DNA from: Flavobacterium amnicola
GTDB lineage: Bacteria > Bacteroidota > Bacteroidia > Flavobacteriales > Flavobacteriaceae
NCBI RefSeq assembly: GCF_004122165.1
Contig: NZ_SBKO01000004.1
Span: 62,001 to 126,000, forward strand
DNA length: 64,000 nucleotides
Direction: 5' to 3'
In this document: positions 28,975 to 48,643 of the stretch, one piece after another
How the letters are laid out: the number at the start of each line of letters is the position of its first letter
Position numbering within the stretch: the first letter of the stretch is position 1
Notes under the pieces: model-generated
What the model was told of the DNA's origin: nothing
The model's database searches: none
Seen by the model: the letters and a program-made list of their open reading frames with translations, nothing else
Translations under genes and position numbers: made by a program

Positions 28975-28976
28975 GA

Positions 28977-29843: not shown

Positions 29844-29952
29844 TCTCACGTATTATTATATGTTTTTGTAAATCTATAAATTTAATTTTATTAGTAAAAT
29901 AAAAAAGGTCTAAAAGTACGTTAATTCATAACATTAGAATAAATATTAATCT

Positions 29953-33185: not shown

Positions 33186-33968
33186 TTATTTTTTAAATAA
33201 CAGTACTAAAGAAATTAATACCGATGATAATGAAATCCAAACTGGAATATTTTGATTAAAGGTAGAGGAATTGGCTTTTGCCGCATTAGGTTCTACATAT
33301 ATTAAATCATTTTGTTTCAAATAATACGCTGGTGAGTTAATAAAATCAGATTTTGACATATCGACCTTAAGTATTGCTTTTTTATTATCTACTTCGCGAA
33401 TTACTGTAACATTATTTCTTTTTCCATAAATTGTCATATCGCCCGCCATACTTAACGCTTCAGGCAATGTAATACGTTCTGAATTGATAGGATAACTTCC
33501 TGGACGCGCCACTTCTCCTTGAACCGAAACCTTAAAGTTCATAATACGAAGGTTAACAATAGGATTTTTGATATATTTTGAAGACAATCGGTTTCTTAAA
33601 TCTTTTACCACTTCCGATTTTGTTTTATCTATAACATTCAGAGTTCCTAATACTGGGAATTCTATAGTCCCGTTTTTATCTACCAAATACATTTGATGCT
33701 GTCTTTGTGCGGAAATATTTTGACCTATCATGGAGGGAACAATTGTCGATTCTAAATTGAATGGAGCCGCAGCCTCTGCGTCTTCAGCAGAAACTATAAT
33801 CAATAACAAATCATCGGGTTGAATTGTCGCGTCATACGTGTTAGAAAACGAATTTGATGTTTGTCCATCAATACTTTGATAGTAAGCAATATTTTTTTGT
33901 TGCTTACAACTAACAAGGGTAAGAACAGCAATAATAACCAGGCTTTTATATATCGTATTTAGTTTCAT
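33186..33968 (-). CDS. wza: Polysaccharide export lipoprotein (Wza-like), copy 1
   Basis: A 260-residue outer-membrane exporter component. A lipoprotein signal ends at LTLVSC (Cys21). The polysaccharide export domain begins near residue 45 (TIQPDDLLLIIVSAEDAEAA), followed by SLBB-type beta-grasp regions (SVQGEVARPGSYPINSERI, about 150-168). A C-terminal membrane helix (about 238-257) is typical of the Bacteroidota form. It overlaps the dehydratase gene by four bases and precedes the Wzc-like gene by five, so export and co-polymerase proteins come from one transcript. Confidence 0.92.
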   Translation of the reverse strand: MKLNTIYKSLVIIAVLTLVSCKQQKNIAYYQSIDGQTSNSFSNTYDATIQPDDLLLIIVSAEDAEAAAPFNLESTIVPSMIGQNISAQRQHQMYLVDKNGTIEFPVLGTLNVIDKTKSEVVKDLRNRLSSKYIKNPIVNLRIMNFKVSVQGEVARPGSYPINSERITLPEALSMAGDMTIYGKRNNVTVIREVDNKKAILKVDMSKSDFINSPAYYLKQNDLIYVEPNAAKANSSTFNQNIPVWISLSSVLISLVLLFKK

Positions 33969-35935
33969 TTGGTATCTAATATTTCAAAAGAGGAATTTAA
34001 ACTTATGTATTCTGGAACAATTTGTTTCATTTTAGCAACAATTAAATTGGCTTCATAATTTTGAGCCAATTGCATTACTTCTGAAACATCTTGATCAATA
34101 TTCTCAAATTTTTCAATCACTTCCTGTGCAATCATTATTTTTTCATGATGGGTAGGTAAGGTTTTGGATTGATCGGTCAATAATTCTTCGTACAATTTTT
34201 CACCCGGACGCAAACCTACTACTTTAATTTTGATTTCTTTCTCGGGCACATACCCTGCCAATCGAATCATTTTTTTGGCTAAATCATAAATTTTGACCGG
34301 TTTCCCCATGTCAAAAATATAAATTTCACCTCCATTTCCCATACCTCCAGCTTCCAGTACCAATTGACAAGCCTCTGGAATCGTCATGAAATAGCGTATA
34401 ATTTCTTCGTGTGTTATGGTCACAGGACCTCCCTCGGCGATTTGTTTCGAAAACAAAGGCACGACAGAACCATTGGAACCTAAAACATTTCCAAAACGCG
34501 TAGTTATAAATTTTGTTGTATCGGAATTGGATTTTAATTCGTTAAAAAATAACGATTGGACATATTTTTCGGCAATTCGCTTACTAGCCCCCATTACATT
34601 ACTAGGATTCACCGCTTTATCGGTAGAAACCATCACAAATTTTTCAACTCCAAATTCAACCGCTAAATCGGCTAAATTTTTAGTCCCCATCACATTCGCA
34701 AAAATGGCTTGAGAAGGATTCTCCTCCATTAATGGGACGTGTTTATAGGCTGCCGCATGATAAATTAAATGCGGCTTATACATCTCCAGAATTCTAGCAA
34801 TTCCGTTTTTATCGCGTATATCTGCAATAAGCGATATGATTTCAATTTTATTATTTAATTTTTGAATTTCAAGCGTTAAATCATGAAGTGGCGATTCTGC
34901 TTGATCTAGAATTAGAAGTTTCTCTGGTTCAAAATTCAATAACTGACGAACAATTTCACTTCCAATAGAACCAGCTGCACCTGTTACTAAAATCGTTTTG
35001 TTCTGGATCTGATTTGAAATCAATTTATTATCCAAAACGATTGGCTTTCGGTCTAATAAATCTTCAATTTGGAAACTCTTAATTTTTTTAGAAATTTCTT
35101 GTTGATTCTCCCAGTCCGTAATTAAAGGAACGGTGTACACTTTTAAATTGTACTCTAAACAATCGTCAACAATAATCATTTGTTCTTCTTTTGACAAACT
35201 TTTGTCGGCAACAATTAATGCTTCTGCCCCCATAGAACGCATAATAACGGAAATTTTTTTCTTCTGACTAACAATCGGCAGATTCAAAATACGCTTTGTA
35301 TCGTTCAAATTGTATTTATCTATGAAACCTAAAATTTTAAATCGGGAAGGAATTTCAGCATTTAAAGCATTGGTAATTGAAATGGCATTCGCATCGGCTC
35401 CATAAATTAAAGCATTTACTAATTTTCCTCCTTGAATAGGCTTAACTATGTTCTCGAAAACTTGTTTCACTAAAACACGATAAGAAAACAATAAAAAAAA
35501 GGAAAATAGTGGATTTAAAATTAAAGCAATGGTGATGTACAAATCGTACTTAAAAACATACTTACTTACAACATCAATAAACACCAAAACTGCTGTTGAA
35601 AAAGCTAAGGAAAAAAATATTTTTATGGCATCAATAAAAGACGAGTGTCTGATAATCCCAGCATAGGTTTTAAACCACCAAAAAAAGAAAATATTTACCC
35701 CGAAATATAAAACGAGTTTTAAAGAATAATTTTCACCCTTAAAAAAATCGAGACTTAACCAAAGAAACACAAAATAAGTAAACGCACATGACATTGCTAT
35801 AGCCGCAATATCAAGCAGTAAAATAACCCATCTAGGAAGGTATCCTAAATTTTTTATGTTAAAATTTGAACCAGCTGTTGACTGTAAAATTTGTCGAATA
35901 ACCGATTTAAAATTTGCCTTATCTTTAATTTCCAA
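33965..35935 (-). CDS. Membrane UDP-GlcNAc 4,6-dehydratase (PglF/WbpM/CapD family), TTG start
   Basis: A 656-residue enzyme. Four membrane helices (about 35-150) and a CoA-binding-like middle domain are followed by an SDR domain (about 310-620) with VTGAAGSIGSEIVRQL and VSTDKAVNPSNVMGASKR. Methionine takes the place of the usual SDR tyrosine, as in PglF/WbpM. It makes UDP-2-acetamido-2,6-dideoxy-hexos-4-ulose. No ATG lies between the upstream in-frame stop and the first helix, so TTG 35935 is taken as the start. Its product could go to the PglE-like aminotransferase (36005) or the reductase at 38082. Confidence 0.9.
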   Translation of the reverse strand: MEIKDKANFKSVIRQILQSTAGSNFNIKNLGYLPRWVILLLDIAAIAMSCAFTYFVFLWLSLDFFKGENYSLKLVLYFGVNIFFFWWFKTYAGIIRHSSFIDAIKIFFSLAFSTAVLVFIDVVSKYVFKYDLYITIALILNPLFSFFLLFSYRVLVKQVFENIVKPIQGGKLVNALIYGADANAISITNALNAEIPSRFKILGFIDKYNLNDTKRILNLPIVSQKKKISVIMRSMGAEALIVADKSLSKEEQMIIVDDCLEYNLKVYTVPLITDWENQQEISKKIKSFQIEDLLDRKPIVLDNKLISNQIQNKTILVTGAAGSIGSEIVRQLLNFEPEKLLILDQAESPLHDLTLEIQKLNNKIEIISLIADIRDKNGIARILEMYKPHLIYHAAAYKHVPLMEENPSQAIFANVMGTKNLADLAVEFGVEKFVMVSTDKAVNPSNVMGASKRIAEKYVQSLFFNELKSNSDTTKFITTRFGNVLGSNGSVVPLFSKQIAEGGPVTITHEEIIRYFMTIPEACQLVLEAGGMGNGGEIYIFDMGKPVKIYDLAKKMIRLAGYVPEKEIKIKVVGLRPGEKLYEELLTDQSKTLPTHHEKIMIAQEVIEKFENIDQDVSEVMQLAQNYEANLIVAKMKQIVPEYISLNSSFEILDTK

Positions 35936-36004: not shown

Positions 36005-37126
36005 TTATGCGAAAAATTTTCGCATAACTTCAAGAATTTTTTCTTTTTCAAGTGCAGTAGTATTCGAACTGGAAGGCAAACACAATCCGTTATTAAATAA
36101 ATTTTCCGCCACCTGCTGTCCATAATACGGTGCATCTGAAAAAATGGGTTGCAAATGCATTGGTTTCCAAAGTGGTCTGGTTTCGATATTTTCGGCTTCA
36201 AATGCCAAACGCAAGGCCTCTCTTTTTTTGTACGAATCTAGCAAAATCGCACTTAACCAATGGTTTGAAAAATAATCATTTGTGGGCTCGTGCAATACTT
36301 TTACTTGGTCAATATTTTGAAAAAAATCAAAATACAGTTGATGCATATCGCGACGCAAACCAACATACTCCGTTAATACTTCCATTTGACCGCGACCAAT
36401 ACCCGCACAAATATTATTCATTCTGTAGTTATACCCAATCTGGCTGTGTTGGTAATGAGGAGCAGTTTCACGGGCTTGGGTAGCTAAAAAAATAGCTCTT
36501 TCTTTAATTTTTACATCTGAAGTAACCAAAGCGCCACCTCCGGAAGTCGTAATAACTTTATTGCCATTAAAAGACAAAATACTGATATCGCCTAACGTCC
36601 CACATTTTTGATTTTTATAGGTACTGCCGAGTGCTTCTGCACTATCTTCCACTAACGGAATAGCATACTTTTGAGCTATTGTGCTTATTTCATCGTGTTT
36701 GTAAGGCATTCCGTATAAATGCACTGCAATTATTGCTTTTGGTTTCTTCCCTTTTGAAATACGATCAACAATCGCTTCTTCTAGTGCAATTGGACACATA
36801 TTCCAGGTATCCAGTTCACTATCTACAAAAACAGGGGACGCACCTAAATACACAATAGGGTTAGCTGATGCCGAAAAAGTCATACTTTGGCAAATCACCT
36901 CATCATCTTTTTGAACTCCTAACACCACCAAAGCCAGATGTAAGGCCGCTGTTCCAGAACTTAAAGCGGCAACATAAGAATCCGCTTTTAAATATTGTTC
37001 CAAATCAGCTTCAAAACCGGCAATATTTTCCCCTTTCACATCAATCCAATTTGGCGATTGAAAAATATATTTTTCTTCCTTCCCAGATAAGTGTGATTGC
37101 GATAAATGGATTCGGTTATTGTGCAT
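36005..37126 (-). CDS. DegT/DnrJ/EryC1 aminotransferase, PglE-like
   Basis: A 373-residue PLP enzyme with ALSSGTAALHLALVVLG (about 54-70), VEDSAEALGS (159-168) and SFNGNKVITTSGGGAL, where Lys190 should hold PLP. It resembles PglE and related enzymes that aminate C4 of the keto sugar made by PglF. It lies immediately upstream of the PglF/WbpM gene, separated by 69 bases with no clear signal. Its start lies 11 bases inside the 3' end of the WbpL-like gene. The likely product is a UDP-4-amino-4,6-dideoxy-GlcNAc (bacillosamine precursor). A reading as UDP-AltNAc aminotransferase (PseC) is less likely. Confidence 0.85.
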   Translation of the reverse strand: MHNNRIHLSQSHLSGKEEKYIFQSPNWIDVKGENIAGFEADLEQYLKADSYVAALSSGTAALHLALVVLGVQKDDEVICQSMTFSASANPIVYLGASPVFVDSELDTWNMCPIALEEAIVDRISKGKKPKAIIAVHLYGMPYKHDEISTIAQKYAIPLVEDSAEALGSTYKNQKCGTLGDISILSFNGNKVITTSGGGALVTSDVKIKERAIFLATQARETAPHYQHSQIGYNYRMNNICAGIGRGQMEVLTEYVGLRRDMHQLYFDFFQNIDQVKVLHEPTNDYFSNHWLSAILLDSYKKREALRLAFEAENIETRPLWKPMHLQPIFSDAPYYGQQVAENLFNNGLCLPSSSNTTALEKEKILEVMRKFFA

Positions 37127-38072
37127 CGTTCAATCGTTTAATAAGATAAAATTTGGTCCCATAAATGGCTACTAAGGGCAATACAATCAGTAAAAACAAA
37201 TACACTGGGTTTATTTGGTGGTACCAAATTATTAAAAAAGAGCACAACAACTGGAGTACCCCATAAAAAAGAGCAACCAAACGATGCTGAATTTTGTAAT
37301 CATTACTTAGAATCTGGTAGAAATGGTGACGGTGTGCTTCAAATATATTTTCTCTTAAATACAAACGGTGAATAATTGTACAAACAGTATCTACTCCATA
37401 AACCGCCAAAAACAATAACCAAATTATAGTATTCGTCGCAATAATCAACTGAATTAAAACATAGATTATCCAAAAAGCAATTCCGATACTTCCAATATCA
37501 CCTGCGAAACATTTTGCCCTTTTTCTGAAATTAAAAAAAAGAAAAACCAAACTGGCAATCATCGGATAAATTAAAAAAGAAGATGACAGAAAAGGATGAA
37601 TCATCTCATTAACATACCAAAGCGAAGCAAACACTACAGTAGTATATACCCCAGTAATTCCGTTGATTCCATCCATGAAATTATAGGCATTTATAATTCC
37701 GATAAATAACACATAGGCTAGTAATACAATCCAAAAAGGAAGTACTTGAAATAAATTTAAACTATAAAACACGGTTGTTATGGCAATGAAATGTGCCAGC
37801 AATCGTACTTTATTCGGTAAACTTTGAATATCGTCCCAAAAACTAACCAAACTCATAATCGAAATCCCTACAAAAAACCATTTGGCTTCTTGAAAATGCT
37901 GCATTGTGTAGAGTAAGGCTGCTAACCAAAAAATGACACCTCCCCCTCTCAAAGTGATTTCGGTATGGGCACTGCGGTGGTTGGGTTTGTCAATAATATT
38001 GTACTTGTCGGCCACTTTAAAGTAGACCAACTCTAAAACAAAAAGTACGACTAAAATTAATAAATATTCCAT
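37116..38072 (-). CDS. wbpL: Polyprenyl-phosphate N-acetylhexosamine-1-phosphate transferase (WbpL/WecA/MraY family)
   Basis: A 318-residue integral membrane protein with ten or so helices. It carries TLRGGGVIFWLAA (about 44-56), the Mg-binding SFWDDIQSLPNKVRLLAH (about 77-94), NAYNFMDGINGITGVY (about 128-143), and a basic loop with HRHHFYQIL. It would start chain synthesis by moving a UDP-linked 2-acetamido-6-deoxyhexose or GlcNAc phosphate to undecaprenyl phosphate. Its place after the WbuB-like transferase and reductase, before WbpM, matches P. aeruginosa O-antigen loci where WbpL has this job. Confidence 0.88.
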   Translation of the reverse strand: MEYLLILVVLFVLELVYFKVADKYNIIDKPNHRSAHTEITLRGGGVIFWLAALLYTMQHFQEAKWFFVGISIMSLVSFWDDIQSLPNKVRLLAHFIAITTVFYSLNLFQVLPFWIVLLAYVLFIGIINAYNFMDGINGITGVYTTVVFASLWYVNEMIHPFLSSSFLIYPMIASLVFLFFNFRKRAKCFAGDIGSIGIAFWIIYVLIQLIIATNTIIWLLFLAVYGVDTVCTIIHRLYLRENIFEAHRHHFYQILSNDYKIQHRLVALFYGVLQLLCSFLIIWYHQINPVYLFLLIVLPLVAIYGTKFYLIKRLNDAQ

Positions 38073-38081
38073 TTTTATATG

Positions 38082-38975
38082 TTAACGAAAAGATGTAAAC
38101 GTAATCATCAAACCTTCTCTCGACGAAACGGGCATTGGTTTTTGAATGGCTTTCACAATTTTATGATTACTAACTACATAATTTTCAGTTAATTTATGTA
38201 ATCTTTCTGTGTTTAAAGGCAAATGCAAATAATCCCCCGATTTTGCTATCGTTTTTATCCAATGGGCAGGTACTTTCCATATCCTACTCTTCTTACCTAG
38301 GCTTTCTCCTAATAATTCGATTACATTATTGGTCGACAATGAAACATCATCGGCTACATTATACACCCCAGAAGGAATTGTTTTTTGATGCAATAATTCT
38401 TGAATCACAAAGCACAGATTTTCGATACTTAAAAACGAACGTTGGTTTTGAAAACTTCCTAACGGCCATGGAAATCCTTTGGAAACCAATTGAAACAATA
38501 AATTTAAATTGCCTTTGTTTCCGGGACCATGAATCATACATGGACGTAAAATATAGACCCGTTTGTTAGGCGGTATATTGTTTAAAATATAGTGTTCTGC
38601 TTTTAATTTTGATTGGCCATACGCGGTTACGGGAGTAGGCACATCTTCTTCTGTTAAAACACCTTCCACGATATCTTTTACTGCTTTTACAGAGCTCATA
38701 TACACAAAAACTTCCGATTCTGATTTCAGAAAACAATCATAGATTTTTTTGGTCAGCTCATAATTCACTTCAAAATAGGCCTCCGCATTGCTCGTCTTTT
38801 TTAAATCGTGAGCTTTACCTGCCAAATGAATTACCGCATCTGCTTTCAAATCTATAGTCTCTTTCCAATTGTCATTTCGTAACGACAAGGATTGTATCTC
38901 ACAATTTGCTTGCTCCAAATAGTGGGAAAGGTTCGTTCCGACAAATCCTGAAAAACCGGTGATTACCACTTTCAT
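38082..38975 (-). CDS. SDR-family UDP-4-keto-6-deoxy-HexNAc reductase/epimerase (WbjF/WbpV/WbpK-like)
   Basis: About 297 residues from ATG 38975; TTG 38990 would add five residues before the Rossmann motif and overlap the previous gene. The cofactor motif is VITGFSGFVGTNLSHYLE (about 4-21) and the catalytic segment is TAYGQSKLKAEHYIL with Ser about 20 residues before. It probably reduces the 4-keto sugar from the WbpM-type enzyme to UDP-D-QuiNAc or UDP-D-FucNAc as substrate for the next gene, WbpL. The stereochemistry cannot be read by eye. Confidence 0.8.
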   Translation of the reverse strand: MKVVITGFSGFVGTNLSHYLEQANCEIQSLSLRNDNWKETIDLKADAVIHLAGKAHDLKKTSNAEAYFEVNYELTKKIYDCFLKSESEVFVYMSSVKAVKDIVEGVLTEEDVPTPVTAYGQSKLKAEHYILNNIPPNKRVYILRPCMIHGPGNKGNLNLLFQLVSKGFPWPLGSFQNQRSFLSIENLCFVIQELLHQKTIPSGVYNVADDVSLSTNNVIELLGESLGKKSRIWKVPAHWIKTIAKSGDYLHLPLNTERLHKLTENYVVSNHKIVKAIQKPMPVSSREGLMITFTSFR

Positions 38976-38976
38976 T

Positions 38977-40185
38977 TTATCTTCCTTCAATTATCTCGTT
39001 CAAATTATTAATACATTTTTCCATCTTGAAATGCTTTTCGTAATAGGCTGCTCCCGATTTCCCCATCGCAGTTCGCTCTTCAGCGTTCAGATAATATAAC
39101 TTAAGCACGATTTGAGCCAATTCTTTATAATCGCCAGCTCCAGCACTAAAACCACATTTTGCTTCATTTACAAGTGAAGCCCCTTCTCCATTCATCATCG
39201 CCAATATGGGCTTTGAAGCACTCATATACGCTTGAACTTTGGCTGGAACTGTTACATTAAATATCAATTCGTCTTTTAAAGACACTAACAATCCGTCGGC
39301 TTTATTAAAAAACGACGACATCGCTTCGATTGGATGTTTTCCCATCAGGTAAATAGTATCTTCTAAATGATGTTCTTTGATAAACTCTTCTACGAAAGAT
39401 TTACTTCTTCCATCGCCAACTAAAATAAATTTTATATCCGAATATTGCTTCAATTCCAAAGCAGCCAAAGCCACATTTTCCATGTCTTGAGACGTTCCAA
39501 TATTTCCAGCAAAAAGTATTTTAAATCCTTCGGGTAAATTTGGAATAGGAAAATTAGCATCTCCTTTCGATATGGTATCTTCCGACCAATTAGGGAAATA
39601 AATTAACTTATCGGCATAATTCCCTTTCTCCAAAATTGACTTTTGAAACCCTTTGGAACTAATTAATATTTTATCAGAATTATTATAAATGTACTTCACA
39701 ATTTTATCAAAAAAACCGAGAACGAATTTATTTTTTATTCCACCCGCCGAAGTCAAACTTTCAGGCCATAAATCAAGCACCCAAAAATAAATCGGAATTT
39801 TACATATTTTTTTGACCACAATAGCCGGAAAACCTTGTGTGATAGGTGATGGCTCGTGAACAATTATAGCATCGTATTTATTGCTGAAGGTTAAAAAAAG
39901 TGCTTTTATTGAGGCAAAAAAGGCCCAACTGAAATAGTTCAAAAACAATTTAACGCCTCCGCCTTTTCCGCGAGGAATCAGCAAGGCTCGAACCACCTCA
40001 ACACCGTTTATGGTTTCTTTTCTTTTCTTAAAAAAACCATACCCTTTGTAAATATTACCTTCTGGATAATTGGGCAATCCCGTTAACACTGTCACTTGAT
40101 GCCCTTTCTTTTGAAGTTCAAAAGCAATATCATTACTTTTAAAATTTTCGGGATAAAAGTATTGTGTTACTAAAAGTATCCTCAT
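38977..40185 (-). CDS. wbuB: WbuB/WbjE-like glycosyltransferase (probable L-FucNAc transferase)
   Basis: A 402-residue GT4 enzyme with the WbuB signature start LLVTQYFYPENFKSNDIAFE (about 4-23), VLTGLPNYPEGNIYKGYG (about 34-51), and YFWVLDLWPESL (about 132-143). The donor domain shows ILFAGNIGTSQDMENV and a weak E-x7-E end. WbuB homologues in E. coli O26/O145 and P. aeruginosa O11 lie beside fnlABC and are assigned the L-FucNAc transfer step. The same neighbours are present here: fnlC five bases upstream and WbpL downstream. Confidence 0.85.
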   Translation of the reverse strand: MRILLVTQYFYPENFKSNDIAFELQKKGHQVTVLTGLPNYPEGNIYKGYGFFKKRKETINGVEVVRALLIPRGKGGGVKLFLNYFSWAFFASIKALFLTFSNKYDAIIVHEPSPITQGFPAIVVKKICKIPIYFWVLDLWPESLTSAGGIKNKFVLGFFDKIVKYIYNNSDKILISSKGFQKSILEKGNYADKLIYFPNWSEDTISKGDANFPIPNLPEGFKILFAGNIGTSQDMENVALAALELKQYSDIKFILVGDGRSKSFVEEFIKEHHLEDTIYLMGKHPIEAMSSFFNKADGLLVSLKDELIFNVTVPAKVQAYMSASKPILAMMNGEGASLVNEAKCGFSAGAGDYKELAQIVLKLYYLNAEERTAMGKSGAAYYEKHFKMEKCINNLNEIIEGR

Positions 40186-40190
40186 CTACA

Positions 40191-41330
40191 TTATTTTTTA
40201 CTCCAAACTACTCTATTGATATAATCGGTATAACTCAAAATAATTCGAACCATTTTTTCCGACACATTCGGCATGGAATAATCGGCTACTGGTCGATAAT
40301 TTCTCGTATCTTTTCCTACTTTTTGTTGTTGCAGTTGCACCAATCCTTGTAATATTCTTTCCGGTGACATTCCAACCATCATCACAGAAGCTTCTTCCAT
40401 GGCTTCCGGTCTTTCATGCGCATCACGAATATTTAAGGCACGAAAATTAAGAATGGAACTTTCTTCAGAAATGGTTCCTGAATCCGACAAAACAGCATAA
40501 GAACGCATTTGTAATGCATTATAATCATGAAAACCTAGCGGCTTCAAAAACTGAATTTCTGGTCGAACTTCCACTTGTTTTTTATCAATCATATTTCGAG
40601 TTCGCGGATGCGTAGAAACAATAATTGGGTATCCAAATTTTTCGGCAATGGCATTTAAACTTTCCATTAAACCATTAAAATTTTTATCCGAATTGATATT
40701 TTCTTCTCGATGTGAGGAAACAACAAAGTATTTACCTTCTTCTAAATTTAATCGGGATAACACATCCGATTTTTCAATTTGAGGCAGATAATGATGCAGC
40801 ACTTCAAACATAGGCGAACCCGTTTTGATGATTCTATCGGCTGACAACCCTTCTCGTAATAAATACTCTCTAGCTATATCACTGTAAGTCAAGTTAATAT
40901 CCGAAATATGATCTACAATTTTTCTATTGGTTTCCTCTGGAACTCTTTGGTCAAAACATCTATTTCCCGCTTCCATATGAAAGATTGGAATTTGTCGTTT
41001 CTTGGCCGGAATAGCACACAAACAACTATTGGTATCTCCCAACACCAAAAAAGCATCAGGTTGCAATTGTTCTAACAAAGGATCTATTTTAATTAGAATA
41101 TTTCCAACTGTTTCTGTGGCTGTAGCCCCAGCCGCTTCAAGAAAATAATCGGGTTTACGCAATCCTAAATCTTCAAAGAAAATTTGATTTAATTCATAAT
41201 CATAGTTTTGACCCGTATGTACAATAATATGTTCAATTGCTTCCGAAGCATCTAAGGCGCATAAAACTCTTGACAATCTTATGATTTCAGGTCGTGTTCC
41301 TACGACCGTCATTACTTTTAATTTCTTCAT
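40191..41330 (-). CDS. fnlC: UDP-sugar 2-epimerase, FnlC/CapG/WbjD type
   Basis: A 379-residue non-hydrolysing 2-epimerase with TVVGTRPEIIRLSRVL (about 8-23), VHTGQNYDYELNQIFFEDL (about 37-55), FLVLGDTNSC (about 93-102), HMEAGNRCFDQRVPEETNRK and SDSGTISEESSILNFRALN. Arg-Cys-Phe in EAGNRCFD fits the FnlC/CapG branch better than WecB, where Arg-Thr-Gly is usual. The reaction is conversion of UDP-2-acetamido-2,6-dideoxy-L-talose to UDP-L-FucNAc. FnlA and FnlB are at 44080 and 42537, so the three-enzyme set is complete. Confidence 0.9.
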   Translation of the reverse strand: MKKLKVMTVVGTRPEIIRLSRVLCALDASEAIEHIIVHTGQNYDYELNQIFFEDLGLRKPDYFLEAAGATATETVGNILIKIDPLLEQLQPDAFLVLGDTNSCLCAIPAKKRQIPIFHMEAGNRCFDQRVPEETNRKIVDHISDINLTYSDIAREYLLREGLSADRIIKTGSPMFEVLHHYLPQIEKSDVLSRLNLEEGKYFVVSSHREENINSDKNFNGLMESLNAIAEKFGYPIIVSTHPRTRNMIDKKQVEVRPEIQFLKPLGFHDYNALQMRSYAVLSDSGTISEESSILNFRALNIRDAHERPEAMEEASVMMVGMSPERILQGLVQLQQQKVGKDTRNYRPVADYSMPNVSEKMVRIILSYTDYINRVVWSKK

Positions 41331-42526
41331 TCTGATTCTTTATTTAAAATCAAGACCAATGCCGATAAATACCATATCTCAGGGCTTGAATGCAAGTTAT
41401 AGGAAAATAACGAAAGTGTAAAATATTGCACCCACAAAACTAAAACCCAAATGATTTCAGGGTATTTTTCACTTACGCTTTTACCATTATAAATATACTG
41501 TATACATTTTTTAAAAAACAAAAAGTAGAGTACAAATCCGACGATACCCGTTGCCATTAATACTTCTAAAAATATATTGTGTGGATACATCCCGTCTTCG
41601 TATAGAATTCTTCCTCCTAAAATTGGATGCTCCGTAAAAATTTGAATTCCTTGTTGGTATAGACTACCACGTCCAGAACTATCTCCTGTAGTAATTGATT
41701 TTGTTATTCTTGAAAAAAAGCTACTTTCATTTTCGCCTGAAAATTGCGGTTTCAAAATAACTAAAGAGACGACTCCAATAAAAAGTAAGGCCAGAAATCC
41801 AAATAAAATTTTTCGTTTGTTTTTCACCCATAATAAAAACAAAACTCCTAATACCAATGCTACAAATGGGCTTCTGGTCCCCGATGCATACATGATATAC
41901 AGTCCAATAAAAAATCCTAAAACGGCACTTATTTGGAAATATTTATTGGTGATAAACTTATACAATAATTGATACAAGGACAGTACTACCAAACTTACTC
42001 CCCAATGTCCAAATGAAATCGAATACATTCCCATAATTCCAGATGTCCTGCCTTGGTGATCGTGTTGAATTCCGATTAAGATATTCGATACCAATACTAT
42101 TAAAATTATATAATAGATGATAATATAGGAAAGTTTAAAATCTATATCTGATTTTTTAAAATTCAAGACTGCAAAGGCTGGAATAAAAGTGATTCCGACA
42201 ATTCGAAGATAGGTCTCCATCTCTTTTAATTGTATATCGGGTAAAAAAGTGAAATTTTGAAATGAATAAATCGCTTTACTAAAATACAATAACCAAAAAA
42301 GTAGAAATGCAATTTCAGTTATTTGATAGTTTTTGAATGATTGCTGATAAAATTTTCTAAGAATTATAATACTTGATAGCAACAAAACAATCGTTCGAAA
42401 CGGAATCGTGATGACTTGACTATCGATTTGAAAAGTGCCAGGAAATATACTTACGACAAAAAACCCTACTAAAAGTAAAATCCAAAAATAGGTCGTAAAT
42501 AATTTTTCTTTATGTTCTAAATTCAT
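41327..42526 (-). CDS. O-antigen polymerase/ligase family protein (Wzy-like), copy 2
   Basis: A 399-residue protein with about 11 helices. The large loop (about residues 275-320) contains SGRGSLYQQGIQIFTEHPIL and MYPHNIFLEVLMATGIVG. Residues YASGTRSPFVALVLGVL precede it. It is clearly related to the protein at 52400: both begin with FPxxFxI and xVPFR or IPFR segments and share GxR and YPHN motifs. It sits inside the fnl block, between fnlB and fnlC, overlapping fnlC by four bases, so it probably polymerizes the FucNAc-containing unit. WaaL-type ligase is the alternative. Confidence 0.82.
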   Translation of the reverse strand: MNLEHKEKLFTTYFWILLLVGFFVVSIFPGTFQIDSQVITIPFRTIVLLLSSIIILRKFYQQSFKNYQITEIAFLLFWLLYFSKAIYSFQNFTFLPDIQLKEMETYLRIVGITFIPAFAVLNFKKSDIDFKLSYIIIYYIILIVLVSNILIGIQHDHQGRTSGIMGMYSISFGHWGVSLVVLSLYQLLYKFITNKYFQISAVLGFFIGLYIMYASGTRSPFVALVLGVLFLLWVKNKRKILFGFLALLFIGVVSLVILKPQFSGENESSFFSRITKSITTGDSSGRGSLYQQGIQIFTEHPILGGRILYEDGMYPHNIFLEVLMATGIVGFVLYFLFFKKCIQYIYNGKSVSEKYPEIIWVLVLWVQYFTLSLFSYNLHSSPEIWYLSALVLILNKESE

Positions 42527-42536
42527 TTAATAAGAA

Positions 42537-43655
42537 TTATACTTCTTCAAAATAAGTATCCGCATCTAGTGGATTGTAAGGCTCATTGATCCAAAAATTG
42601 GTATACAAATCTTCTTCTCCTATATTTTTGATATTATGTGTGTACCAAATTGGCATATCTACATAGGCGGGTTCCTTTCCATCCAAATAAAAATCCAACA
42701 CTTCATGGGTTCCTATTTTTCGCAATTGAATTAACGCTTTCCCTTTAATAACGGCAAATCGCTCAATTTTACGTGTGTGATAGTGATTACCTCTGGTAAT
42801 TCCAGGAACTGTTGTTGAAAAAGAACATTGCCCCCCAATTCCCAATCGGATTATTTCTACAAAGGCACCACGATCATCAGTATGTTGAGTGAATTTTACC
42901 GGATAATGTGTCGCAATATCAAAATACGACCGAAAGGTATTGAATAAATTTAAATCAAATGTAGAATGAATTTGCGGAACTTCACCCGTTTCAAAATAGG
43001 TGGTTTTATAATACTGCAACGTTTCCAAAACCTCGGAAACTTTATGTGTGTATGTAGGCTGTATTTCGAGAATTGCTTCCGATTTACCAGCTCTTATATT
43101 TTCAATAATGGCTGCCACTAATTCGCCAACATAAATCAGTTTTACTTCTCCATCCGTATCGATTACAGGGGTTTCGTTGTGCGTCAGTTTATAACAAAAG
43201 GTAGCCACAAACGAGTTGTAATTTGGTTTCCCAAAAGGACCAAATACATTAGGAATAATCATCCCGGTAAATTTGCCTTCACATTTATCAGCCCAATCGG
43301 CTAATAATTCGCGGCCTTCTTTTTTGGATTTTCCATATAAATTATCTCGCTCTTCTTGTGATGAAGACGAAAAGAGAACGTGTGCTTTGGATTGGGTTCG
43401 ATCTAAAGAATTGATCAATTTTTGGGCTAAATCGACATTGGTTTGATAAATAAATTCTTGACTTTCGTGACGATTCATTGCCGCTAAATGCACGATAACA
43501 TCACATTGCGAAACAAAGTCATCTAACAAAGAAGTATCTTCGAAATATTCTTTTTTAAAAGGAATGCGTTCAAACTCATCGGCATACAAACCTAAAGTAT
43601 TGAATAGATGATTGCCTACAAATCCGTTTTGTCCTGTTATACCAACTTTTAGCAT
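42537..43655 (-). CDS. fnlB: Bifunctional FnlB/CapF/WbjC: SDR reductase with C-terminal cupin
   Basis: A 372-residue two-domain enzyme. The N-terminal SDR (1-245) has GITGQNGFVGNHLFNTLG and YGKSKKEGRELLADWA. The C-terminal cupin (about 250-372) holds a metal site in GITRGNHYHTRKIERFAVI and is followed by YVDMPIWYTHNIKNIG. In CapF the cupin epimerizes C3 of the 4-keto sugar from FnlA/CapE and the SDR reduces C4, giving UDP-6-deoxy-L-talNAc. Length matches CapF closely. The neighbouring FnlA and FnlC complete UDP-L-FucNAc synthesis. Confidence 0.93.
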   Translation of the reverse strand: MLKVGITGQNGFVGNHLFNTLGLYADEFERIPFKKEYFEDTSLLDDFVSQCDVIVHLAAMNRHESQEFIYQTNVDLAQKLINSLDRTQSKAHVLFSSSSQEERDNLYGKSKKEGRELLADWADKCEGKFTGMIIPNVFGPFGKPNYNSFVATFCYKLTHNETPVIDTDGEVKLIYVGELVAAIIENIRAGKSEAILEIQPTYTHKVSEVLETLQYYKTTYFETGEVPQIHSTFDLNLFNTFRSYFDIATHYPVKFTQHTDDRGAFVEIIRLGIGGQCSFSTTVPGITRGNHYHTRKIERFAVIKGKALIQLRKIGTHEVLDFYLDGKEPAYVDMPIWYTHNIKNIGEEDLYTNFWINEPYNPLDADTYFEEV

Positions 43656-43656
43656 A

Positions 43657-44079
43657 TTATTTCGTACAATTAAATTGATCTAGAGTATACCTAAACTCAT
43701 CACTGATTTGACCTAGTAAATAATCAGCCATTACTAATAATTTTGAATTTTCTTCCATCGCTTGAATACAGGAAATATAACCCGCTGGTATATGAAGTAC
43801 ATCCAATGTTTCGGATTCCAGTTGAAACACAAACGGTTCCAAAGTACCACTTGGATGCTCCCAATCGTCTACTTTAATCAGTTGAATTTGAAAACTTCCT
43901 GATAGCGCAGAAAACCATCGTTGTTCAACTTTATGACCTTGCCATCCACGTTTAAAGACAGTCGATTTATTTTCAATAATGTAGGTACGTTTGACTTCAG
44001 AAGCATCAAAGTCATTATTATACTTTAAATTCCCTCTATCATCGGAATGACAATTTCCTTTTAATAAAATAGGATTCAT
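43657..44079 (-). CDS. WxcM/FdtA-like cupin protein (putative sugar isomerase)
   Basis: A 140-residue single-domain cupin of the WxcM-like group, with GNCHSDDRGNLKYNND (about 8-23), FKRGWQGHKVEQRWFSALSG (about 42-61) and LHIPAGYISCIQAMEENS (about 95-112). Such proteins act as 3,4-ketoisomerases (FdtA) or epimerases on keto-deoxysugars. It is inserted with one-base spacings between fnlA and fnlB. It may act on the UDP-4-keto-6-deoxy-L-HexNAc made by FnlA, but FnlA/B/C need no such enzyme in known pathways, so its step is unclear. Confidence 0.75.
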   Translation of the reverse strand: MNPILLKGNCHSDDRGNLKYNNDFDASEVKRTYIIENKSTVFKRGWQGHKVEQRWFSALSGSFQIQLIKVDDWEHPSGTLEPFVFQLESETLDVLHIPAGYISCIQAMEENSKLLVMADYLLGQISDEFRYTLDQFNCTK

Positions 44080-45117
44080 TTAGTCGGGATATTGTCTGGC
44101 ATCCACCTCACCTAAAACTTCTTTACGAATGAGAGGCAGTTTCATTAATAAATTTTTCATTCCCGCTACATCTTGTTGCGTGGTATTATGAGAGTGATAG
44201 TCTTCTATTTTAGAAATATCCACTTCCCCTTCCGAGAAATATTGAGCATAATTTAAATCGCGATTATCCGCAGGGATTCTGTAAAAATCGCCCATATCTT
44301 CCGCTTTTATCATTTCTTCACGCGTGCACAATGTTTCATATAATTTTTCACCGTGACGCGTACCAATAACTTTTATAGGGTTATCGGATTTAAAGAGTTC
44401 TTTTAAGGCTTGGGCCAAATCGCCGATAGTACCCGCCGGTGCTTTATTGACAAATAAATCCCCCGAATTTCCGTGTTCAAAAGCAAATAAAACAAGTTCT
44501 ACCGCCTCTTCCAAAGACATTAAAAAACGAGTCATGGAAGGATCTGTTATCGTAATTGGCTCGTTATTTTTAATTTGTTTGACAAACAAAGGAATCACAG
44601 AACCTCTTGAAGCCATTACATTTCCGTATCGGGTCAAACAAACCGTTGTTTTTTCTAAATTCCTAGAAGCAGCCACAGCCACTTTTTCCATCATTGCTTT
44701 GGAAATTCCCATAGCGTTAATAGGATAAGCTGCTTTATCGGTACTCAAACAAATTACTTTTTTGACATCATTTTTTACAGCGGCATCAATAACATTTTGA
44801 GTTCCGGTTACATTGGTTTTAACCGCTTCCATTGGAAAAAACTCACACGATGGCACTTGCTTTAGCGCTGCGGCATGAAACACATAATCCACACCACGCA
44901 TGGCATAATCTACGCTTTGTGCATTTCGTACATCGCCAATATAAAATTTTAACTTGTCATTTTTATACAGATTACGCATATCATCTTGTTTTTTCTCATC
45001 ACGAGAAAAAATTCGAATTTCTTTAAAATGATTGGTATCTAAAAAACGGTTAAGTACTGCTGTTCCGAAGGAACCTGTACCACCTGTGATCAAAAGCGTT
45101 TTGTTTGTAAATTCCAT
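44080..45117 (-). CDS. fnlA: UDP-GlcNAc 4,6-dehydratase/5-epimerase, FnlA/CapE/WbjB
   Basis: A 345-residue soluble SDR enzyme that begins UDP-L-FucNAc synthesis by dehydrating and inverting C5 of UDP-GlcNAc. The cofactor loop is LLITGGTGSFGTAVLNRF (about 8-25), with IRIFSRDEKKQDDMRN (about 34-49), STDKAAYPINAMGISKAMME (about 125-144), and the C-terminal RHGEKLYETLCTREEM. It lacks the membrane domain of the PglF-like protein at 33965. It follows the HisF-like gene by three bases and is directly upstream of the WxcM-like cupin and fnlB. Confidence 0.93.
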   Translation of the reverse strand: MEFTNKTLLITGGTGSFGTAVLNRFLDTNHFKEIRIFSRDEKKQDDMRNLYKNDKLKFYIGDVRNAQSVDYAMRGVDYVFHAAALKQVPSCEFFPMEAVKTNVTGTQNVIDAAVKNDVKKVICLSTDKAAYPINAMGISKAMMEKVAVAASRNLEKTTVCLTRYGNVMASRGSVIPLFVKQIKNNEPITITDPSMTRFLMSLEEAVELVLFAFEHGNSGDLFVNKAPAGTIGDLAQALKELFKSDNPIKVIGTRHGEKLYETLCTREEMIKAEDMGDFYRIPADNRDLNYAQYFSEGEVDISKIEDYHSHNTTQQDVAGMKNLLMKLPLIRKEVLGEVDARQYPD

Positions 45118-45120
45118 TTC

Positions 45121-45882
45121 TTAACTGTATAGCTTTTCTTTTTCTTCTTTGTTGGGATAATTGATCAGTACGGCTTTATAAACCCCTTTAAACACAAATA
45201 AACTTCCAGCCGCAACACCGATAATTTTATGTTTATCAATCACTTTTTTAATATCTTGTAAAGTGCCTGCACCTCCCAAAACGGTCACAGGAATGGTTAA
45301 GTTCTCGACCATTTTATCAATTAAATTCATATCATAGCCTTTCATTACGCCATCTTGATCAATGGAGTTGATGATAATTTCACCTGCTCCCAATCGTTGC
45401 GCTTCTTCGGCAAATTTAACTGGGTTGACACCTGTTGCTTTTTTTCCGTTATGAATGTATACTTCATAGCCTCCTAAGAGTTTTTTCTTCACATCAATCA
45501 CTACGATAACACTTTGTGAACCTACTCGATTGGCAATTTCCGTAATTAAAGATGGATTTTGAATTACTGCAGAACTTAAAGCGATTTTTTCAATCCCTAA
45601 TCCGAATATTTTTTGTGCTTGTTCTACGGTTTTTACGCCTCCTCCATAACACAAAGGCATTCTGGATTGGTTGGCTAACTTTTCAATTAAGGCATAGTTT
45701 GGTTCATTTCCTTGAACACTTGCATCAATATCAAACACAGCCAATTCATCTACTTCCTTTTCATTAAATATTTTAACGGCATTTATGGGATCGCCGACAT
45801 ATTTTGGATTTTTGAAGTTCACTGTTTTTACCAAACCATTATCGTGAACTAAAAGACTGGGAATTATTCTTGGTCTAAGCAT
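45121..45882 (-). CDS. wbuZ: HisF-like cyclase-fold subunit for acetamidino sugar (WbuZ/HisF2)
   Basis: A 253-residue TIM-barrel protein homologous to HisF, with RIIPSLLVHDNGLVKTVNF (about 4-22), VDELAVFDIDAS (about 43-54), VVIDVKKKLLGGYEVYIHNG and GAGEIIINSIDQDG. The catalytic aspartate of true HisF (LDV in the first strand) is replaced by leucine here, as in the WbuZ/HisF2 branch. It should receive ammonia from the HisH-like partner (45885) and pass it to the WbuX-like amidotransferase (46493), instead of making histidine. Spacing to neighbours is 2-3 bases. Confidence 0.88.
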   Translation of the reverse strand: MLRPRIIPSLLVHDNGLVKTVNFKNPKYVGDPINAVKIFNEKEVDELAVFDIDASVQGNEPNYALIEKLANQSRMPLCYGGGVKTVEQAQKIFGLGIEKIALSSAVIQNPSLITEIANRVGSQSVIVVIDVKKKLLGGYEVYIHNGKKATGVNPVKFAEEAQRLGAGEIIINSIDQDGVMKGYDMNLIDKMVENLTIPVTVLGGAGTLQDIKKVIDKHKIIGVAAGSLFVFKGVYKAVLINYPNKEEKEKLYS

Positions 45883-45884
45883 AC

Positions 45885-46496
45885 TTATAATTTAGCAAAG
45901 TTATGTAACAATTCTTCTCCGTAATGGTGGCTTTTTTCTGGATGAAATTGAATTCCGTATACATTTTCATGATTGGCAGCAGAAGTAAACGAAATACCAT
46001 AATTGGAAGTCGCTAAAATATCTTTAGGATCATTGCATTCAAAATAAAAACTATGCAAAAAATAAAAAATTGCATCCTTTTCTAATCCTTTGAATAACGG
46101 ATGTTCAGAAGGATGTACGTCATTCCAACCCATATGTGGCAATTTGGTTCGCTGATGGATGGTTGATTCATCAAATTTTCTAATATTAGCGTCAATCCAC
46201 TTCAAACCTTCCAACTGACCTTCGTCGCTTTTATTGCCCATCATTTGCATTCCGACACAAATACCAATTACAGGAATCTTTTTTTCCAATACAAGTTCAT
46301 CCAATTTTGCTCGCATTCCTGAATTGTTCAACTGTGACATGGCATAATCAAAATGACCTACCCCGGGCAAAATCAACTTTTGCGCGTCTTCTAAATCCTG
46401 AGGTGTTTTTGCAATTTTTGTAGGGATATCTAATCTTTTGTATACATTTTGAAACGCATAGATATTTCCAACCCCATAATCTATAATAGTAATCAT
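45885..46496 (-). CDS. wbuY: HisH-like glutaminase subunit (WbuY/HisH2)
   Basis: A 203-residue class I glutamine amidotransferase. The nucleophile is Cys80 in VIGICVGMQMMG, and the remaining triad residues are His185 and Glu187 in GIQFHPEKSHH. The oxyanion-type loop ILPGVGHFDYAMSQL is at about 42-56. It releases ammonia from glutamine for the paired HisF-like protein. Location between wbuX and wbuZ, and overlap of four bases with the former, show a dedicated role in amidino-sugar formation, not in histidine synthesis. Confidence 0.92.
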   Translation of the reverse strand: MITIIDYGVGNIYAFQNVYKRLDIPTKIAKTPQDLEDAQKLILPGVGHFDYAMSQLNNSGMRAKLDELVLEKKIPVIGICVGMQMMGNKSDEGQLEGLKWIDANIRKFDESTIHQRTKLPHMGWNDVHPSEHPLFKGLEKDAIFYFLHSFYFECNDPKDILATSNYGISFTSAANHENVYGIQFHPEKSHHYGEELLHNFAKL

Positions 46497-47638
46497 CTAA
46501 ACAATCTTTTTTCTAACCCTAATTTCATCATTACTTTAGAGCCTAATTTAATGATTCCCATCTTATTCTTATAGTCTTTATAGGTTTTATTTGGACCTTC
46601 GAATATTTTTTGAAGTTCCTCTACCGTTAAATCCAATTTATGCGCTACGTATTCAAATTCTTTTTGTAAAAATTCTTCCGACAATTCAGGTCTTGAAATT
46701 CTATCCAACGCTTCTTCTCTTGTCATTTGCCCCGTAAGAATTAAGCTTGAAAAGTGCGCTCTTCTTTTTTCGAAACCAAATTTTCTTGGCAACCAAAAAT
46801 CTTCATAAAAACGAGTAAATCTAGACTCGTGGTGTTTGTGTTGAAAGCTTTCCCATCCGAATTTATCGAACAACAATTGCTCCACATCTTTTTTGATATA
46901 AGGCACTAGATTTAAAGGTTTGAAAACTTTCATTCCCAAAACATATCGATAATAAATTTTATAACTCAAAATATCCACTAACGGAAAAGTCTTGAGTGGT
47001 TTTTTCCCAAATTTAGAGTGGATATCATTGACCAAAACGGTGTCAATTCCCGGAAAACCACCCCATTCTTCTGGCTCTCTACAACATTCTGTAGAAAAAT
47101 TTCCGCCAGTTAGGACGTATTTAATTTTATTCTGTTTGGCGAATTTATACAGTCCGGAGAAAAAAGCATAATCCTGAGGCAAGTCTTGATCGGCAATTTG
47201 CGATTTTAGAAAGGCAACCTGAAGGTCTTTCATTTCTTGCCAATTAATAACATCAGTATATAAATCTAAGCCTAATCCGTTGATTAATTTTTCAATGTTT
47301 CCTACTGCTTTATCGGTATTCCAACCCGCATCGACATGAAATATCAAAGGTCTTAAACCCATAATTTCTTTGGCAACGTAAGCGGCATAAGAACTATCCA
47401 ATCCACCGCTAAGACCGATGATACAATCAAAATCCCTGTTTTTTCCGTCTTTTTTGATTTTTTCGGCAACACTCATCAGTTCCTTATAACCTCTTTCGTC
47501 GATATGCCAATTGGGTTCAATATTTTGTTTAAAGTTAACGTAATAATCGCTTTCCCCTTTTTCATTAAAAACAATGTTTGGATCGGATGTATCCATAATT
47601 GTTTTGGTACACATTTGGTAAGGTTTATTCGTATTCAT
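46493..47638 (-). CDS. wbuX: N-acetyl sugar amidotransferase (WbuX/WbpG/LfnA/PseA family)
   Basis: A 381-residue PP-loop ATP pyrophosphatase. The PP-loop is IIGLSGGLDSSYAAYVA with SGGLDSS at residues 77-83, and family cysteines include YQMCTKTIMDTSDP near the N-terminus and STECCREPEEWGG (about 205-217). It activates the N-acetyl carbonyl of a sugar with ATP and replaces oxygen with ammonia delivered by HisH/HisF-like partners, giving an acetamidino group. The order wbuX-wbuY-wbuZ-fnlA strongly suggests L-FucNAm as product. A promoter box lies 19 bases upstream. Confidence 0.92.
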   Translation of the reverse strand: MNTNKPYQMCTKTIMDTSDPNIVFNEKGESDYYVNFKQNIEPNWHIDERGYKELMSVAEKIKKDGKNRDFDCIIGLSGGLDSSYAAYVAKEIMGLRPLIFHVDAGWNTDKAVGNIEKLINGLGLDLYTDVINWQEMKDLQVAFLKSQIADQDLPQDYAFFSGLYKFAKQNKIKYVLTGGNFSTECCREPEEWGGFPGIDTVLVNDIHSKFGKKPLKTFPLVDILSYKIYYRYVLGMKVFKPLNLVPYIKKDVEQLLFDKFGWESFQHKHHESRFTRFYEDFWLPRKFGFEKRRAHFSSLILTGQMTREEALDRISRPELSEEFLQKEFEYVAHKLDLTVEELQKIFEGPNKTYKDYKNKMGIIKLGSKVMMKLGLEKRLFR

Positions 47639-47704: not shown

Positions 47705-48643
47705 TTAATGAATTAAAAGCGGTTTGACAATTTTTGCCTTTTCTATATAATTTTTATCGTTATACTTGATATAAACGGTTTTTGTTCCTTTGAATTCCTT
47801 GTTGATATTCATTCCGTCTTTTCTACCGTAAAAATAAGTATCGGCGGCCCACCAAACAATTCCGTCAACATTATGTCTGTTATACTCACAACTTACAATT
47901 TTATTGATATAATCTTCCCAAAAAGAATTTTCCATTAGTGACCAACCTAGTTTTTCGTTGCTGGGATGAAATCGATGCAACACAAATGGATAAACGGGTT
48001 TGTGATATTTTCTACCTAATTCAATAGATTTTTCAACATTAGAAGAAATGTATTCGGAATTTTTTAGAGTCCCTACAATACCATCATCGTAAAACATGTA
48101 CATAGAAGGAAAAAACACATCAACTTCTTTCAACAACTTATCAATTTTATCATTTCGGTCTAAAAATCCCGTCATGGTTTCCCAATAGGTAGTAAATGGA
48201 ATAGCATAAAACCCCCATTTTACATTTGGCCTTGTTTTTTTTGCAAATTGAACGATGCCTATAAATAATTGTTGCGCTTTAATAAAATCTTCATCCGTTG
48301 TTTCGTTGTTACAAATTTTTTCTAAATAGGGACTTTCAAGATCAATAAAGCAATATCCGTTTTGATTTTTATTTGGAAATTTTTCAGAAATAAATTTTTT
48401 AAATTTTAGCGTATCTATTTTATATTCTTCAGTTGATAAGAACATTTTCTCGTCGACATAATTAACATATTCCATCTCATTTTTTTGGGCGAATTGTTTC
48501 ATTTCATCACCATAATCAAGAATTGAATATAAAAATTTTTGCTCAATATTTGCATCAACATCATTTCGATTGTTATGCTTTGTTTTGGGCAAACAAGAAA
48601 TAGCCAAAACAAAAAGCAATAGGATAGTTAAATTCTTATTCAT
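47705..48643 (-). CDS. Lipoprotein with GH56 hyaluronidase-like features
   Basis: A 312-residue lipoprotein (lipobox LAISC, Cys17). Its central part lines up by eye with GH56 hyaluronidases: CFIDLESP (Asp101, Glu103) against VIDWExW; a run to RPNVKWGFYAIPF (139-150) against RPxGLWGFYGFPDCYN; VDVFFPSMYMF (174-184) against SRALYPSIYMP; PVYPFVLHRFH (216-226); and DGIVWWAADT (260-269) against GVVLWVSW. The GH56 catalytic pair Asp-x-Glu, a Tyr and a Trp are thus conserved. I infer a periplasmic or surface hexosaminidase acting on a HexNAc-uronic acid glycan. It has its own leader and sits between a decayed gene and wbuX. Confidence 0.65.
   Translation of the reverse strand: MNKNLTILLLFVLAISCLPKTKHNNRNDVDANIEQKFLYSILDYGDEMKQFAQKNEMEYVNYVDEKMFLSTEEYKIDTLKFKKFISEKFPNKNQNGYCFIDLESPYLEKICNNETTDEDFIKAQQLFIGIVQFAKKTRPNVKWGFYAIPFTTYWETMTGFLDRNDKIDKLLKEVDVFFPSMYMFYDDGIVGTLKNSEYISSNVEKSIELGRKYHKPVYPFVLHRFHPSNEKLGWSLMENSFWEDYINKIVSCEYNRHNVDGIVWWAADTYFYGRKDGMNINKEFKGTKTVYIKYNDKNYIEKAKIVKPLLIH

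Follow-up and report, generated by a model that had tools for sequence, protein, structure and literature searches.

Which sugar is made by a block of amidotransferase, dehydratase and epimerase genes whose first enzyme keeps only one of the four zinc-binding cysteines of its family? The block lies in Flavobacterium amnicola (assembly GCF_004122165.1, contig NZ_SBKO01000004.1, positions 62,001–126,000), in a stretch of 64,000 nt that is referred to here in its entirety as the window. On its minus strand, wbuX, wbuY, wbuZ, fnlA, a cupin gene, fnlB, a Wzy_C-family gene, fnlC and a family 4 glycosyltransferase gene follow one another. With a probability of about 85%, this block is predicted to make 2-acetamidino-2,6-dideoxy-L-galactose (L-FucNAm) for a Wzx/Wzy-type surface polysaccharide. 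The genes, their order and conservation, and the intact PP-loop and glutaminase motifs are seen in the locus itself, while the reactions and the glycan are deduced from the protein families.

The single wbuX copy of the genome encodes a protein that passes the curated cut-off of the amidotransferase model TIGR03573, and WbuZ passes that of the AglZ/HisF2 model NF038364 (Table 1), lying narrowly under an older WbuZ model (297.4 versus 299.7 bits). Identities to the proteins of the Escherichia coli O145 cluster are 71% for WbuX, 52% for WbuY, 60% for WbuZ, 70% for FnlA, 33% for FnlB, 69% for FnlC and 22% for WbuB. The PP-loop SGGLDS is intact in the window's WbuX and in 84 of 84 aligned rows. 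In an alignment that includes O145 WbuY and a portion of E. coli HisH, WbuY has the Cys of GICVG and the His and Glu of QFHPE, which we take to be its glutaminase residues. In WbuZ, a Leu replaces the Asp of the E. coli HisF motif CLDV, as it does in O145 WbuZ, and a true hisF is encoded elsewhere in the genome (G000:C22; 354.7 bits, cut-off 294.55).

In a quick tree with long outgroup branches, used for topology only, the window's WbuX falls within an 83-row clade that includes O145 and O118 WbuX (Shimodaira–Hasegawa-like approximate likelihood ratio support 100). The corresponding O145 clade has support of 100/99 in a second, more careful tree, thinned to 61 rows and built with the zinc-motif region excluded. 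This placement, together with the identity to O145 WbuX and the linked fnlABC genes, supports the L-FucNAm prediction of a preliminary description of this DNA. In O145, wbuX is reportedly required for L-FucNAm, judging from the title of a 2008 study by King (cited in PMC11637443).

Related loci were recovered by a pattern scan of a species genome collection, which yielded 328 relatives. The best 80 by similarity to the window were retained (60 from Bacteroidota and 20 from Achromobacter, Pseudomonas, Paucimonas and Paralcaligenes), a ranking that over-represents the window's own type. Their genes were labeled by BLAST of mechanically called open reading frames (ORFs) against window and O145 proteins. 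The full order wbuX-wbuY-wbuZ-fnlA-fnlB-fnlC is present in 70 of the 80 loci (50 of 60 in Bacteroidota and 20 of 20 in proteobacteria), which indicates that the arrangement is more than chance; of the 73 loci that extend 8 kb or further downstream, 68 have it. Both wbuY and wbuZ are found in 79 of the 80 loci, and the remaining locus stops at a contig end.

In the proposed pathway, FnlA, FnlB and FnlC would convert UDP-N-acetylglucosamine (UDP-GlcNAc) to UDP-N-acetyl-L-fucosamine (UDP-L-FucNAc). WbuY would release ammonia from glutamine and WbuZ would pass it on to WbuX, which, with ATP at the PP-loop, would exchange the acetamido oxygen for nitrogen on UDP-linked, lipid-linked or polymeric FucNAc. 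The transferase adjoining fnlC probably links the sugar to a first sugar of the N-acetylquinovosamine (QuiNAc) type, which would be supplied by the WbpM-, WbpV- and WbpL-like genes downstream. The predicted product has precedent: according to a review, L-FucNAm is present in the O-polysaccharide of F. columnare ATCC 43622, a likeness in polymer composition (PMC3210612). The preliminary description presented the glycan as an echo in a distant phylum; that novelty falls away, since the sugar was already known from F. columnare and scattered Bacteroidota species carry the block. It is thus a known kind of operon, very probably for a sugar known in the phylum. Two traits are unexpected: the zinc site has changed repeatedly, and a neighboring gene has a glycoside hydrolase family 56 (GH56) fold. 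In Bacteroidota species that carry the block, L-FucNAm becomes predictable from sequence.

In the O145 cluster (NZ_CP027105.1, L033), wbuX-wbuY-wbuZ-fnlA-fnlB-fnlC and then a family 4 transferase gene occur in the identical order, with no cupin between fnlA and fnlB, a wbuC cupin after wbuB, and neuB and neuC in the same cluster. The window, in contrast, has two insertions in the core and no wbuC next to the gene at the wbuB position, so that the earlier claim of a shared order applies to the core genes only. A DNA search with wbuX-wbuY-wbuZ across 5426 E. coli genomes had matches in 48, with identities of 60–80%. Four of the 48 loci were inspected; judged by the wzx and wzy annotations, one is of the O145 type and three are of the O118/O151 type (L032, L034 and L035). 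All four carry the six genes, the transferase and wbuC. The O118/O151 clusters otherwise differ from the window as O145 does, but neuB and neuC are present only in the O145 locus, and the block therefore does not imply sialic acid.

The preliminary description had also suggested that the glycan may combine sialic acid with L-FucNAm, as in O145, because neu genes occur in the window. These genes lie in another cluster, which begins with Wzt/Wzm-type ABC-exporter genes (27697–29849) and is separated from the block's cluster by a plus-strand CpsB-like gene (29986–30720), and the block's cluster has its own Wzx-like (53592–54872; PF13440) and Wzy_C genes. A shared glycan was accordingly rejected, and two separate glycans are probably the simpler reading.

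Several observations weigh against the prediction of L-FucNAm. FnlA is under the cut-off of the FnlA equivalog TIGR04130 (560.5 versus 730 bits) and FnlB is under that of the WbjC/FnlB equivalog NF047837 (249.9 versus 500 bits), so that these assignments rest on the identity of FnlA to O145 FnlA and on a full-length match of FnlB, cupin included, to Staphylococcus aureus Cap5F (2zkl; 235.1 bits in phmmer). FnlB gives 186 bits with O145 FnlB in BLASTP, the protein at the wbuB position is distant from O145 WbuB, and the slot between fnlA and fnlB that holds the extra cupin is empty in O145. Among the 73 long loci, five lack the full order: three have no fnl genes (L058, L060 and L110), one has no fnlB or fnlC (L079), and one has no separate fnlB (L087). 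Finally, in the window's WbuX C10 is kept, and the other three positions of the zinc motif are Thr, Ser and Tyr (C-T-S-Y).

The crystal-structure paper on this family (PMC10607449) states that wbuX is needed for L-FucNAm in E. coli O145 and presents a zinc-binding tetracysteine, CxxC...[GN]xCxxC, as conserved. Among the matches listed for the tetracysteine and zinc in the literature, this was the only paper on the WbuX/NASAT family. O145 WbuX keeps all four cysteines, and all four are present in each of the three E. coli rows of the alignment. The Bacteroidota loci are nearly uniform, with C-T-S-Y in 58 of 60, C-T-S-F in one (L055) and C-C-S-Y in one; of the 20 proteobacterial loci, 16 have all four cysteines and four, from Achromobacter, have C-T-S-C. 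A further 39 Bacteroidota family members, some from species that overlap the 80 loci, comprise 21 with an intact motif, 11 with C-T-S-Y (none below 78% identity) and seven with other losses, five of which combine Thr or Ser in the second place with Tyr in the fourth. Overall, the tetracysteine is incomplete in 31 of the 61 rows of the second tree, on which the state changes five times, at least four of them on well-supported branches, in a count that takes gain and loss together.

Structure prediction places this changed motif in a familiar fold. The best model of the window's WbuX has a predicted local distance difference test (pLDDT) score of 80.3 and the other four 61.5–72.1, and its best PDB match is a solved amidotransferase, Legionella pneumophila NASAT (8wex; Z 24.7, root-mean-square deviation (rmsd) 3.8, 324 aligned residues), with the next other chain at 12.7. 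The two share the fold and the PP-loop at 18% identity in the structural alignment, and 8wex has the zinc tetracysteine. Because the match extends over residues 3–348, the zinc lobe seems to be kept in the model. WbuX is thus a variant of the NASAT family, inside it by score and fold and outside it by the tetracysteine motif. Since some enzymes predicted to serve the same sugar have the zinc site and others lack it, the site is suggested to be dispensable or replaceable in this family, in which zinc likely has a structural role; such pairs of enzymes offer a direct test of what zinc does.

The changed site could also mean that the pathway stops at L-FucNAc, with a zinc-less WbuX that is inactive or acts otherwise and a glycan devoid of amidino groups. 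The absence of three of four cysteines from a site presented as conserved in PMC10607449 speaks for this possibility. However, the C-T-S-Y proteins of the Bacteroidota loci are 75–87% identical to the window's WbuX and have an intact PP-loop, wbuY and wbuZ are retained nearly throughout, and the cysteine state has changed repeatedly on the tree, a combination unlike that of decaying genes. We consider this outcome improbable, although it is the best placed of the alternatives.

Marginally less probable is an amidinated sugar of other stereochemistry (L-QuiNAc or L-RhaNAc type), which the divergent FnlB, with its low score and low identity to O145 FnlB, and a second cupin located in fnl operons might allow. 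A report on F. psychrophilum (PMC6519341) describes an O-polysaccharide with L-FucNAc and a cluster that includes a WbuB homologue as well as three 'fln' genes, a likeness by description that argues against this alternative. The full-length Cap5F match of FnlB and the close similarity of FnlC to its O145 counterpart point the same way, toward L-FucNAc. Three traits set the lineage of the window apart from O145: its FnlB is closer to Cap5F, it has an additional cupin, and its WbuX lacks three zinc cysteines yet retains the predicted fold.

Action of WbuX on a 2,3-diamino uronic acid (as for WbpG) or on pseudaminic or legionaminic acid (as for PseA) is very improbable: although enzymes of these kinds fall in the WbuX family too and commonly come with HisH/HisF partners, WbuX shares just 22% identity (60.5 bits, pairwise) with the amidotransferase of a pseudaminic acid cluster whose PseB, PseC and PseI are above cut-offs (L164), its clade is apart from relatives in a wbp context, and the neu cluster is separate from the block. 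The wbp-context relatives (L155 and L161), placed outside the window's clade in a tree built without a named WbpG, have as neighbors a Gfo/Idh/MocA-type oxidoreductase and an aminotransferase, neither above an NCBIfam cut-off, which we presume to correspond to WbpB and WbpE. The preliminary description named clustering with the PseA or WbpG branch as a refutation; by pairwise identity, WbuX is not close to the PseA-type enzyme of L164.

Downstream of the glycosyltransferase gene lie genes at the wbpV and wbpL positions, an aminotransferase gene and a gene at the wbpM position, followed by Wza- and Wzc-like genes; the wbp names are given on our assumption of correspondence with Pseudomonas aeruginosa. 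From wbuX to wzc, neighboring genes overlap by 4–14 bases or are separated by 0–69 bases, and the set looks like one operon. The preliminary description proposed a seven-gene block from wbuX to wbuB within 40191–47638. Six of these genes, their order and the minus strand are as described, but two inner genes, for the FdtA-type cupin and the Wzy_C protein, were missed, and the gene at the wbuB position lies outside that range. Its product reaches no curated NCBIfam cut-off and is 63–67% identical to proteins in several Chryseobacterium and Kaistella loci. The cluster also encodes a second Wzy_C-type protein (52400–53602, minus strand), 24% identical to the one at 41327–42526; one of the two may be the polymerase and the other the ligase.

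Table 1 Features of the block and of neighboring genes (window coordinates; scores and cut-offs in bits).
Feature	Position	Strand	Evidence
wbuX/lfnA-type PP-loop N-acetyl sugar amidotransferase	46493..47638	-	TIGR03573 271, cut-off 203.2
wbuY, HisH-like glutaminase	45885..46496	-	TIGR01855 225.2, cut-off 105.4
wbuZ, AglZ/HisF2 family barrel	45121..45882	-	NF038364 385.1, cut-off 310
fnlA/wbjB/capE, UDP-GlcNAc 4,6-dehydratase/5-epimerase	44080..45117	-	FnlA model 560.5; 70% to O145 FnlA
FdtA/WxcM-like cupin, 140 amino acids (aa)	43657..44079	-	PF05523 29.7, cut-off 23
fnlB/wbjC/capF, reductase with C-terminal cupin	42537..43655	-	PF01370 and PF14667
Wzy_C-family membrane protein (polymerase or ligase)	41327..42526	-	PF04932 62.2, cut-off 31.7
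fnlC/wbjD, WecB-type 2-epimerase	40191..41330	-	TIGR00236 238.8, cut-off 210.15; 69% to O145 FnlC
Family 4 glycosyltransferase, wbuB position	38977..40185	-	PF13692/PF00534
SDR reductase, wbpV position	38082..38990	-	PF01370 79.6
WecA/WbpL-like initiating phosphosugar transferase	37116..38072	-	PF00953 78.8; WecA model 72.5, below cut-off
LegC/PglE-like aminotransferase	36005..37126	-	TIGR04181 370.7, below cut-off 420
WbpM/PglF-like membrane 4,6-dehydratase	33965..35935	-	PseB model 203.2, residues 310-614, below 407.75
GH56-fold protein, lipoprotein-like N-terminus (by eye)	47705..48643	-	PF01630 38, cut-off 23.2
NeuC, TylF-like methyltransferase, NeuB, PseF/NeuA-like cytidylyltransferase	11914-15413	-	NeuB and NeuC above N-acetylneuraminate cut-offs

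Carriers of the block are scattered among species of Chryseobacterium, Flavobacterium, Pseudomonas and others. Whole-phylum scans, each run on a sample of genomes (395 for WbuX and 296 each for the cupin and the GH56-fold protein), gave a WbuX match at an expectation value (E) of 1e-60 or below in 31 of 395 genomes, the window's own included, 12 of them at 66% identity or more. In a genus sample, 11 of 249 genomes, again including its own, had a match, six at 79% identity or more. The best identities are 84–85% in the genus sample and 87% in Chryseobacterium, Pelobium and Tenacibaculum; with higher identity outside the genus than within it, the spread of the module appears patchy. Chryseobacterium and Flavobacterium blocks (for example L036, L038, L054 and L055) share the WbuX lacking zinc cysteines, the cupin and the FnlB type, and some also share the Wzy_C gene and the GH56-fold gene. 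Of the 70 loci with both flanking genes located, 19 have a Wzy_C-like gene in the slot between fnlB and fnlC.

Export of the block from E. coli was considered and rejected for the window, which is not near O145; blocks from two other Bacteroidota genomes (G175 and G347; L215 and L216) are nearer, with 75 and 73% identity for WbuX, 56 and 55% for FnlB, and no cupin. The presence of these blocks in Bacteroidota of another family suggests exchange between phyla.

In 46 of the 53 loci with a Bacteroidota-type FnlB, and in none of the 20 proteobacterial loci, the cupin gene separates fnlA from fnlB. Homologues were found in 35 of the 296 sampled genomes, the window's own included. In the 30 cupin loci returned, also counting its own, 17 genes are between fnlA and fnlB and 13 are not, eight of the latter being beside an aminotransferase gene. 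The fnlA-cupin-fnlB arrangement extends to genomes with no wbuX match (G203 and G285), and the cupin goes with the L-FucNAc pathway, not with amidination. Equating it with E. coli WbuC finds no support: the two align at 16.9 bits over 21 residues in BLASTP and differ in domain (PF05523 versus PF19480 in WbuC). It is not a partner of zinc loss either, as in one genome (G567, L220) the cupin and an FnlB of this type occur alongside a four-cysteine WbuX. Searching PDB sequences with the cupin gave no match at E 0.1.

Directly upstream of wbuX, the window encodes a protein that passes the GH56 model PF01630 (Table 1). The six best Foldseek matches of its model (pLDDT 89.2) are all animal hyaluronidases, and the model aligns with bee venom hyaluronidase at Z 22.9 (rmsd 2.6, 246 aligned residues), with the next other fold at 14.1. 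The gene occupies this position in 14 of the 80 loci and lies elsewhere within the locus in one more. It is rare in the phylum (three of the 296 sampled genomes, its own included); in the other two it is next to wbuX (G419) or in a genome with no wbuX match (G369). Glu103, invariant in 16 GH56-fold rows, may correspond to the hyaluronidase catalytic Glu; two residues before it, where the Asp of the catalytic Asp-x-Glu would be expected, L055 and L057 have Asn. Catalysis by GH56 enzymes relies on the carbonyl oxygen of the acetamido group in the substrate, and an acetamidino group has none. Speculating from adjacency, fold and chemistry, the lipoprotein might act in quality control, cutting chains with unmodified FucNAc and sparing FucNAm, so that amidination by an amidotransferase lacking the zinc site would protect the polymer from the cell's own trimming enzyme, a role that we regard as quite unlikely.

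Two reviews assign enzymes of mammals, other animals and venoms to GH56, and substrate-assisted catalysis is described in one of them. Among the matches listed for GH56 with Bacteroidetes and lipopolysaccharide and for bacterial hyaluronidase, the available text contained nothing on such genes. The gene thus provides a bacterial case of a fold that these reviews describe for hyaluronidases of animals and venoms, and a substrate hypothesis is at hand. Across 71 rows including the window, the GH56-fold gene and the Wzy_C gene in the fnlB–fnlC slot are both present in 14, Wzy_C only in six, GH56 only in one and neither in 50 (Fisher p 2e-9). With two independent pairs on well-supported branches, or six on all branches, a linkage beyond shared ancestry was not demonstrated and was not adopted.

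Ten of the 80 loci contain an extra ORF of about 600 aa between wbuZ and fnlA that is absent from the window (L037, L038, L041, L042, L046, L052, L064, L068, L069 and L077). In L038 (12540–14345), the only one scanned, it encodes an asparagine-synthase-type amidotransferase (Asn_synthase and GATase_7). In six other loci (L145, L148, L149, L219, L221 and L222), wbuX-wbuY-wbuZ is followed by an ORF of about 700 aa and no fnlA was seen; these loci perhaps specify another amidino sugar.

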